DNA of 64,000 bases from an uncultured Verrucomicrobiota bacterium (GTDB lineage: Bacteria > Verrucomicrobiota > Verrucomicrobiia > Opitutales > Opitutaceae), in assembly GCA_903898675.1 (NCBI GenBank), contig CAIUGM010000014.1, positions 310,001 to 374,000 of the forward strand, read 5' to 3'. This document shows, one piece after another, positions 48,236 through 50,724 of this stretch (its first letter is position 1; each line of letters opens with the position of its first letter). A program made the position numbers and the translations under genes. The notes beneath the pieces are model-generated. The model was not told the DNA's origin and searched no databases. It saw nothing but the letters and a program-made list of their open reading frames with translations.

Positions 48236-49729
48236 ATGAGTGAGAACAAGGAACTGCTCACAACCAACCGCAAGGCGCTGACCATCAATCTGGATGGCTC
48301 CCGCTACGGAACGATCGCGGAGATCGGCGCCGGGCAGGAGGTGTCGCGCATCTTCTTCCAGGTGGGCGGGGCTTCCGGCGCCATCGCCAAGACCATGTCG
48401 GCCTACGACATGACCTTCAGCGACGCCATCTACGGCAAGGCCCCCCGGTACGTCTCCCGCGAGCGCCTCGAGACCATGCTCAACCACGAGTACCAGCTGC
48501 TCGAGGAACGCCTGGCCGGCAAGCGCGGCGACAAGACCAAGTTCTTCGTCTTCGCCGATACCGTCGCCGCCAAGACCTTCAAGGGCACCACCGACGGCCA
48601 CGGCTGGCTCGGCATCCGTTTCCAGCAGAACCCGCTCGAGGCGCCCAGCGACATCATCATCCACGTCCGCATGTGGGACAAGGAGAACGTCCAGCAGCAG
48701 CAGGCCATCGGCACCGTCGGCGTCAACCTGATCTACAGCGCGTTCAACTACTCCGCCGACCCGCTCCAGCTCATCCAGTCGCTCGTCGACGGCATCGGCA
48801 GCGACCGCGTCGAGGTGGACATGATCCGCGTCAGCGGCCCGGCGTTCCAGCACATCGACAACCGCCTGCTTTCGCTTCGCCTCGTGCAGTTCGGCCTGAC
48901 CAACGCCGTGATGTTCGCCCCCAACGGCGAGGTACTCCAGCCGTCCGAGGCGCTCTACCGCAAGGCCGTGCTCGTCGAGCGCGGCAGCTTCCGGCCGGTC
49001 ACGCACGTCAACGTCGACATGCTCAATTGCGCCACCGCGCAGTTCATGCAGGAGCCCATGGTGAAGGGCAAGGACCTCATCGTCCTCATGGAAATCACCA
49101 TGAACAACCTGCTGGCCGACGGCGACCTCGACGCCGACGACTTCCTCGCGCGCGTCGACATGCTCGGCCACATCGGCTTCACCACGATCATCTCGAACTA
49201 CTCCGAGTTCTACCGCCTCGTCTCCTACTTCCGCCGCTACACCAAGGAAATGATCGGCGTCGCCATGGGCATCAATACCCTCCTCGAGATCTTCAACGAG
49301 AAGTATTACGAAAACCTCGAGGGCGGCATCCTCGAGTCGATGGGCCGCATGTTCCGTCACGCCGTGAAGCTCTATATCTACCCAATGCGGCAGGACGCCT
49401 TCGACCGCTACCTGGCGAACGGCCAGCCACCCGCCGCGGCGCACAACGGCAGCAACCCGTTTTCGTCCGAGGTCATGATCACGGCCCGCAACCTCCAGGT
49501 CTCCGACCGGCTGCGCAACCTGTACGCCCACCTGCTCGAGAACCACAACCTCGACTGCATCGTCGGCAGCAACCCGGATTACCTGAACATCTTCTCCCGC
49601 GACGTGCTGCACCGGATCAAGGCCGGCGACGATTCCTGGGAGCGGCTCGTGCCGGCCAAGGTCGCGGAGATCATCAAGTCACGCCACCTGCTCGGGTACG
49701 GGGCCAAAGCCACCGTGCCGGCGGTTTGA
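48236..49729 (+). CDS. Conserved protein of unknown function (497 residues)
   Basis: A soluble 497-residue protein without a signal peptide or membrane segment. I recall close relatives in Verrucomicrobia and Bacteroidetes, often with unhelpful names such as TonB-dependent receptor or nicotinate adenylyltransferase; neither fits. Conserved-looking stretches are RKALTINLDGSRYGTIAEIG, EVSRIFFQVGGASGAIAKT, YDMTFSDAIYGKAPRYVSRE and LIYSAFNYSADPLQLIQS, then RPVTHVNVDMLNCATAQFMQ and FYRLVSYFRRYTKEMIG. No nucleotide-binding or catalytic motif is obvious to me. The gene is isolated and divergent from sppA. A housekeeping cytoplasmic role is likely. Confidence 0.9.
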   Translation: MSENKELLTTNRKALTINLDGSRYGTIAEIGAGQEVSRIFFQVGGASGAIAKTMSAYDMTFSDAIYGKAPRYVSRERLETMLNHEYQLLEERLAGKRGDKTKFFVFADTVAAKTFKGTTDGHGWLGIRFQQNPLEAPSDIIIHVRMWDKENVQQQQAIGTVGVNLIYSAFNYSADPLQLIQSLVDGIGSDRVEVDMIRVSGPAFQHIDNRLLSLRLVQFGLTNAVMFAPNGEVLQPSEALYRKAVLVERGSFRPVTHVNVDMLNCATAQFMQEPMVKGKDLIVLMEITMNNLLADGDLDADDFLARVDMLGHIGFTTIISNYSEFYRLVSYFRRYTKEMIGVAMGINTLLEIFNEKYYENLEGGILESMGRMFRHAVKLYIYPMRQDAFDRYLANGQPPAAAHNGSNPFSSEVMITARNLQVSDRLRNLYAHLLENHNLDCIVGSNPDYLNIFSRDVLHRIKAGDDSWERLVPAKVAEIIKSRHLLGYGAKATVPAV

Positions 49730-49872: not shown

Positions 49873-50724
49873 ATGCGCTTCTTTAAATACCACGCCCTGG
49901 GCAACGACTACCTGGTGATGAACCCGGCGGATTATCCGACCTGGACCGCCCCCACCCGCGAGCAGATCCGGGTCATCTGTCACCGCAATTTCGGCGTCGG
50001 CTCGGACGGTATCCTTTGGGGCCCGCTGCCGTCCCGGCAGGCGCAGTTTGGCCTGCGGATCTTCAATCCCGACGGCTCCGAGGCGGAGAAATCCGGCAAC
50101 GGCCTCCGCATCTTCTCCCGTTACCTGCACGACCAGAAGCTCACCGGCGCCGCCCCGTTCACCATCGAGGTGCCCGGCGGCGTGGTGGAATCGAAGGTGA
50201 TGCAGGATGGCCAGCTCATCACCGTCGAGATGGGCCGGGTGTCTTTCCAGAGCGACCGGATTCCCGTGGCCGGCCCGGTGCGCGACGTCCTCAACGAGAG
50301 TTTCACCATCCAGGACCGCACCTTCACCTTCTCCGCCGCCGGGATCGGCAATCCGCACTGCGTCATCGTCCTCCCGGAAATCTCCGCGGACCTCGCGAAG
50401 CAATACGGCCCCGACATTGAGGTGCACCGGAATTTCCCCAACCGGATCAACGTCCAGTTCCTCAAGGTGATCGACCGGCACAACGTGCAGATCGAGATCT
50501 GGGAACGCGGCGCCGGCTACACCCTCGCCTCGGGCAGCAGCTCCAGCGCCTCGGCCGCGGTGGCACACCGGCTCGGCCTGGTCGATGCCAAGGTGACCGT
50601 GCACATGCCCGGCGGCCAGATCGGCATCGAGATCGCACCGGACTTCGCCATTCGGATGAGCGGACCCACGACGCGCGTCGCCGAGGGTGAACTGCATCCG
50701 GAGTTGTTCGCGACGAAGGTCTGA
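49873..50724 (+). CDS. Diaminopimelate epimerase homologue lacking both catalytic cysteines
   Basis: A 283-residue protein with the overall DapF fold: FFKYHALGNDYLVMN at the N-terminus, LRIFNPDGSEAEKSGNGLRI in the first active-site region, GIGNPHCVIVLPE, and GAGYTLASGSSSSASAAVAH in the second. DapF uses two cysteines (C73 and C217 in the H. influenzae enzyme, in QCGNG and ACGSG) as acid and base. Here both are Ser: Ser74 (codon TCC at 50092) and Ser220 (codon TCG at 50530). All other conserved elements are retained. The enzyme is therefore unlikely to be an ordinary DapF; it may catalyse another reaction, work by a serine mechanism, or be inactive. It stands alone, with no lysine-pathway genes nearby. 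Confidence 0.8.
   Translation: MRFFKYHALGNDYLVMNPADYPTWTAPTREQIRVICHRNFGVGSDGILWGPLPSRQAQFGLRIFNPDGSEAEKSGNGLRIFSRYLHDQKLTGAAPFTIEVPGGVVESKVMQDGQLITVEMGRVSFQSDRIPVAGPVRDVLNESFTIQDRTFTFSAAGIGNPHCVIVLPEISADLAKQYGPDIEVHRNFPNRINVQFLKVIDRHNVQIEIWERGAGYTLASGSSSSASAAVAHRLGLVDAKVTVHMPGGQIGIEIAPDFAIRMSGPTTRVAEGELHPELFATKV

Follow-up and report, generated by a model that had tools for sequence, protein, structure and literature searches.

A large group of bacteria carries a form of the DAP epimerase DapF in which both catalytic cysteines are replaced by serine. This Ser/Ser DapF is a real, conserved variant and, judged from sequence, is most likely the enzyme that epimerizes DAP in the bacteria that carry it. 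The gene considered here lies in a 64,000-nucleotide stretch of the genome of an uncultured bacterium of the order Opitutales, phylum Verrucomicrobiota (the window), and we hold with good confidence that it encodes the meso-DAP-forming epimerase of this organism, with a Ser/Ser acid-base pair set in a re-tuned active site. Because the Ser/Ser form is common to a large bacterial group and mostly the sole copy, it probably does the same job as the classical enzyme with a different acid-base pair. DapF is, of course, the standard example of how a thiol/thiolate pair can take a very weakly acidic proton, and its cysteines are said to be tuned by helix dipoles and the exclusion of water. What is new is a Ser/Ser variant of a known enzyme; the surprise lies in the chemistry.

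The window gene and its protein

The open reading frame occupies positions 49873 to 50724 of the window on the forward strand, stop included, starts with ATG, and encodes 283 amino acids. It is a clear DapF homologue, scoring 231.4 bits against the DapF profile TIGR00652 (cut-off 114.65) and 183.6 bits against PF01678 (cut-off 34.7) in profile searches. A search of the PDB with the protein returns 17 solved sequences at E<=0.01, and the three PDB DapFs that were aligned have cysteine at both catalytic places. The window protein has Ser74 at the first (codon TCC, 50092 to 50094, forward strand; Cys73 in H. influenzae numbering) and Ser220 at the second (codon TCG, 50530 to 50532, forward strand; Cys217 in H. 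influenzae numbering), in the contexts AEKSGNGLR and GAGYTLASGSSSS. Rereading the two codons confirms the initial annotation, which had reported the loss of both cysteines, and with Ser74 and Ser220 in these places the protein is not classed as a classical thiol DapF.

The same annotation had called the fold intact, and modeling agrees. An AlphaFold2 model built from 55 aligned sequences (mean pLDDT 95.9) predicts the two-domain DapF fold, superposing on P. aeruginosa DapF (8qzy) with Z 36.7 and rmsd 1.8 over 271 residues; Foldseek gives a TM of 0.90. In this model, Ser74 and Ser220 stand directly before helices 75-87 and 221-233. The window protein thus shares with classical DapF (TIGR00652; 8qzy, 4ijz, 9mro, 1gqz; Z 34-37) its fold, its family profile, its DAP-contacting residues, and its place in the pathway, but differs in having serine for both cysteines and in twelve further clade-specific residues, Lys73 among them.

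A conserved Ser/Ser clade

Could the two serines be sequencing errors or a sign of recent decay? From 331 ORF hits, 238 distinct relatives were obtained, comprising 196 Ser/Ser, 38 Cys/Cys, and 1 Ser/Cys sequence as well as 3 with one half, counts that are not frequencies because sampling of the loci began with those closest to the window. With Ser/Ser in 196 of 238 distinct relatives and in many independent genomes, neither chance nor sequencing error accounts for the form. Both families of serine codons are in use: among 164 distinct Ser/Ser sequences, Ser74 is encoded by TCN in 90 and by AGY in 74, while Ser220 is encoded by TCN in 150 and by AGY in 14. No single base change joins TCN and AGY, which means that serine was either retained or regained as the codons moved from one family to the other. 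The 196 distinct full Ser/Ser sequences and the two codon families rule out error in the codons or recent decay, the probability of which is practically nil.

The tree tells the same story. With columns 74 and 220 removed, a quick tree of 102 sequences (73 Ser/Ser and 29 Cys/Cys), in which two long plasmid branches meet, has one change between the Ser/Ser and Cys/Cys forms, with support 99. The Ser/Ser sequences form a conserved clade, then, even when both catalytic columns are left out. A selected change rather than decay had been proposed from the window gene itself; the single clade, its clade-specific active-site residues, and the two codon families all uphold this.

The clade spans much of Verrucomicrobiota and is scattered in records titled Cyanobacteria, Deltaproteobacteria, Sedimentisphaerales, and Desulfobacteraceae. 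Within the phylum, DapF is matched in 343 of 387 genomes, the catalytic pair being typed in the fetched sequences, a subset of those 343 genomes. A search of the open-licence PMC literature found no description of a Ser/Ser DapF. The sole mixed pair among the relatives typed is a natural Ser/Cys DapF (L326; AEMSGNG ... KSCGSG) in a 1.0-Mb genome of the order (G418). A record titled Akkermansia muciniphila (L088) holds a DapF 74% identical to the window's Opitutales-type DapF; the name of that bin may be wrong.

The active site: what changed and what was kept

Which residues accompany the two serines? Counting as clade-specific those found in at least 95% of Ser/Ser sequences (165 rows, 164 distinct) and in less than 10% of 29 Cys/Cys sequences, the set comprises Ser44, Gly50, Pro51, Pro66, Lys73, Ser74, Ile80, Phe125, Gln195, Glu208, Ile209, Tyr216, Ser220, and Ser223. 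Lys73 (50089 to 50091, forward strand) adjoins Ser74 and is present in 191 of the 196 Ser/Ser sequences; none of the 29 Cys/Cys sequences has lysine before the first catalytic residue. The other five have Ile, Met, or Arg, and because Ile stands there in three of the 196, Lys73 is not strictly needed. Tyr216 (50518 to 50520, forward strand) and Ser223 (50539 to 50541, forward strand; Gly in the 29 Cys/Cys sequences compared) are each found in 193 of 196.

The residues that hold the substrate are another matter. The DapF of C. glutamicum (CgDapF) is reported to contact DAP through Asn15, Asn74, Asn85, Asn159, Asn194, Glu212, and Arg213 (PMC5296763). Located by alignment and by their distance from the catalytic residue, the counterparts are kept almost throughout the 196 Ser/Ser sequences: N11 in 195 (with one gap), N65 in 195, N76 in 196, N160 in 194, N193 in 196, and both E211 and R212, the "ER" pair (50503 to 50508, forward strand), in 196. 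As far as alignment can tell, the DAP site has stayed intact, and the pair of residues that carries the proton has changed.

The DAP pathway in the genome of the window

LysA and MurE require meso-DAP, and Ddh (meso-DAP dehydrogenase) is an enzyme that supplies it. The genome to which the window belongs is 99.95% complete and encodes DapL (559.9 bits), LysA (445.9 bits), and MurE (534.1 bits, with the DNPR motif); Ddh has no match in it at E<=1e-5, so the window gene has its place in the DAP pathway. A second, cysteine-containing DapF, the presence of which the initial annotation had suggested checking, was not found there, either by protein search at E<=10 or by PF01678 above its cut-off; the one weak PF01678 match (G000:C8) reaches 13.6 bits, far under the cut-off of 34.7. 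A sole DapF was half of what that annotation would have taken as evidence against its reading, the other half being normal activity.

The MurE of Verrucomicrobium spinosum is reported to use LL-DAP at <1% of the rate with meso-DAP (PMC3681970). Verrucomicrobial subdivision 4 was earlier described as being without DAP. One study detected DAP in Lacunisphaera and Opitutus terrae at levels nearly 10-fold below E. coli (PMC5303756). In its available passages, that paper gives no stereoisomer for its DAP method and lists a DapF without remark on its residues.

DapF and Ddh across the order

What about the other members of the order? DapF is present in 75 of the 87 order genomes surveyed, of which 62 carry Ser/Ser, 9 Cys/Cys, 1 both, and 1 Ser/Cys, with 2 incomplete. 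Ddh (TIGR01921), an enzyme unrelated to DapF, is found in six of the 87, chiefly in genomes that lack DapF. Four of the 12 DapF-less genomes have it, compared with 2 of the 75 that encode DapF (Fisher p 0.0028); among the 68 LysA-bearing genomes, the corresponding counts are 4 of 6 and 2 of 62 (p 0.00026). Both p-values ignore kinship. Three of the four DapF-less genomes with Ddh belong to one genus (g27), so few independent events are involved. Two LysA-bearing genomes have neither DapF nor Ddh; one is 50% complete, and in the other a stop codon interrupts the LysA-like frame. Thirteen order genomes (11 Ser/Ser, 1 Ser/Cys, and 1 partial) carry DapF yet give no LysA match at E<=1e-20, a pattern that would suit a demand for meso-DAP from the wall and not from lysine synthesis.

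In the order, and even inside a single family, the Ser/Ser and Cys/Cys forms substitute for one another; the family to which the window belongs includes three genomes, all from one genus, with Cys/Cys in place of Ser/Ser. Eighteen genomes of the order are no larger than 1.3 Mb; 10 of them carry Ser/Ser, 1 carries Ser/Cys, 1 has a partial gene, and 6 are without DapF, so retention in small genomes is a weak argument. In one 97% complete genome of the window's family (G283), neither DapF nor Ddh was found. Another member of the order (G449; 2.3 Mb, one contig) has no match to DapF, Ddh, or LysA at the cut-offs applied, which is unusual for its size.

Beyond the order: paralogues and plasmids

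Of 28 genomes outside the order, 27 bear a Ser/Ser gene and one (G290) has Cys/Cys only. Twenty of the 27 have one DapF gene, some of them giving two matches, with both parts held in one frame in the genes inspected; one (G355) has two incomplete pieces, of which one was typed, as Ser/Ser; and six carry a Cys/Cys paralogue in addition. In five of the six paralogues EFG replaces ERG, so that the DAP-contacting Arg is missing. These Cys/Cys DapF-like proteins with EFG for ERG (in L275-L280) are perhaps, to go by this motif, another racemase. At E<=1e-5, Ddh was found in none of 24 Ser/Ser-only genomes outside the order, made up of 21 without a Cys/Cys copy and three of other phyla, the completeness of those three being not known.

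Of eight genomes examined outside the phylum, three carry the Ser/Ser form alone and five carry it together with Cys/Cys. The five are three cyanobacterial genomes, one Planctomycetota MAG, and one Desulfobacteraceae MAG, and the presence of both forms means that the Ser/Ser protein may do something else there. Dulcicalothrix desertica PCC 7102 (G390, L147) has two different Ser/Ser genes and one Cys/Cys dapF.

Plasmids searched with the window protein give no match of at least 60% identity. Among 12 plasmid DapFs typed (L220-L225 and L348-L353), 10 are Cys/Cys, including all of L348-L353, and 2 are Ser/Ser. The latter lack Lys73, Tyr216, and Ser223, and their sequences may have converged on the main clade, their two long branches being those that meet in the tree. 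These diverged genes lie on an Agrobacterium vitis plasmid (L272:10177-16113) and a Streptomyces NBC_01216 plasmid (L273:10308-16006), in the common order iron-containing redox enzyme, 2OG-Fe dioxygenase, dapF, molybdopterin oxidoreductase, aldo/keto reductase. Shared by two unrelated hosts, this row looks like a biosynthetic cluster.

Gene neighborhood

In 120 Ser/Ser loci searched by tblastn with DapA (a 118-residue piece), E. coli DapB, DapL, and LysA, dapA and dapB stand beside Ser/Ser dapF in three (L141, L146, and L152). The arrangements across the three are lysC-dapB-dapA-dapF, dapA-dapB...dapF, and dapF-dapA-dapB, the row in L141 being an aspartate kinase (recognized by eye), dapB, dapA, and dapF. 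Their DapFs are 62% mutually identical, and a crude Poisson estimate puts the chance of at least three such cases at p about 0.008. Two other loci have DapL matches, one short and at the locus edge (L089) and one weak (L256; 29% identity). The dapA of L141 (L141:2463-3375) is interrupted by an in-frame TAG, which could be an error, a pseudogene, or recoding.

The window dapF has no recognized dap genes adjoining it. An exosortase-type gene lies downstream, and directly upstream is a 497-amino-acid ORF (window positions 48236-49729) without a Pfam match at E<=0.001, the cluster of which stands beside dapF in 37 of 81 loci, window included. A conserved neighbor that would explain a special role was considered and rejected, since clustering of the neighboring ORFs in 80 loci plus the window gave mostly Opitutales synteny. 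Eight loci outside Verrucomicrobiota have no common neighbor theme that could be seen by eye; the neighbors in L148 and L153 resemble what we take to be thiamine genes.

Serine in related enzymes

Can serine serve in this fold at all? Some clusters of the proline racemase superfamily are described as being without one or both cysteines (eLife 2014). The 4-hydroxyproline 2-epimerase B9JQV3, which has a Ser93/Cys pair on the same fold, is assigned a two-base epimerization (eLife 2014 e03275); it differs from the window protein in family, in substrate, and in its second residue, a cysteine. The trans-3-hydroxyproline dehydratase described in the same work has Ser90 opposite Thr256, with the same fold and serine as the Cα base. 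Like the window protein, it has no catalytic cysteine on either face, but it belongs to another family and carries out a dehydration by one-base chemistry. The window protein has serine (Ser74) at the first catalytic position of this shared fold. The Asn at +3 that is proposed to position the catalytic serine (eLife 2014) is absent; the window protein reads S74-G75-N76-G77, with Gly at +3 and Asn at +2. At 10-18% identity to proline racemase and the hydroxyproline enzymes (14-15% to 4lb0, the A. vitis hydroxyproline epimerase), the relation to the Ser-type enzymes of that superfamily is likeness, not membership. Among other enzymes, an aspartate/glutamate racemase in which Thr takes the place of one cysteine is reported to work in one direction (PMC8142540).

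Alternative explanations

The initial annotation suggested that the protein might be another kind of enzyme or serve in binding. Might the Ser/Ser DapF be a weak binding or regulatory protein, while some other protein, such as a PLP racemase, makes meso-DAP? Single Cys-to-Ser mutants would lead one to think so: those of PddB are reported to have <0.1% activity, and Mt-DapF is reported to behave alike (PMC8225329). With such mutants nearly dead, a Ser/Ser epimerase is chemically surprising, and two serines would make a very poor catalyst unless compensated. A mere binder fits poorly, however, with the way in which Ser/Ser DapF complements both Ddh and Cys/Cys DapF, with the dap neighbors, and with the almost wholly conserved DAP contacts, and we regard it as distinctly unlikely. 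The chance that the protein performs another Cα-H reaction on a DAP-like substrate (a dehydration, an elimination, or the racemization of another amino acid) seems slimmer still. Such a role would suit the Ser90/Thr256 dehydratase precedent, the Ser/Ser paralogues beside Cys/Cys DapF in cyanobacteria, and the two plasmid genes set between dioxygenase and oxidoreductase; but the plasmid pair lacks three residues typical of the main clade, so its reaction need not match that of the main clade, and in the window's genome the Ser/Ser gene is the sole DapF found, with LysA present and Ddh missing, as in most relatives examined. For the organism of the window neither role finds support, and the occurrence of Ddh mostly where DapF is missing, like the dapA-dapB loci, also speaks against both.

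A subtler alternative keeps the reaction and changes the base: the protein would be a DAP epimerase in which a residue other than serine, such as Lys73, acts on at least one face, with the serines relaying protons or positioning groups. In Anabaena DapF, no basic residue is reported within 4 Å of either thiol (PMC12039745), so a lysine there would be a real change, and Lys73 directly precedes Ser74 in nearly all Ser/Ser sequences and in none of the Cys/Cys ones. Set against this are the five sequences with Ile, Met, or Arg at that place and the fact that no comparable residue stands beside Ser220 in sequence. We consider this version unlikely, if less so than the other two.

How two serines might epimerize DAP

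The preferred reading remains that of a DAP epimerase with serine on both faces, and its parts are not equally secure. That the Ser/Ser DapF epimerizes DAP is very probable. The enzyme would take the LL-DAP to DL-DAP step, after DapL and before LysA and MurE, binding DAP through the same residues as classical DapF, with the Cα between the N termini of two facing helices. Ser74 and Ser220 would stand in for thiolate and thiol as the general acid/base pair; that both are direct proton carriers is a proposition that we lean toward slightly. The re-tuned surround (Lys73, Ser44, Gln195, Glu208, Tyr216, and Ser223) would lower the cost of the exchange, and Lys73 is a candidate helper because the thiols of Anabaena DapF have no basic residue close by. 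The idea that Ser/Ser catalysis is made possible by Lys73 and the rest of the clade-specific set is tentative, somewhat less likely to be right than wrong.

Implications

Is this, then, a widespread thiol-free DAP epimerase, one that carries out the reversible two-base inversion of an unactivated Cα-H with a Ser/Ser pair and a co-evolved second shell? We see the chances of that complete picture as evenly balanced. A slow epimerase may account in part for the small amounts of DAP in verrucomicrobial subdivision 4. If the reading is right, a natural and apparently needed Ser/Ser DapF would offer a direct test of the thiol's share in catalysis, rules that call DapF by its two cysteines would miss a large bacterial group, and cysteine-reactive inhibitors of DapF should fail on bacteria with the Ser/Ser form.
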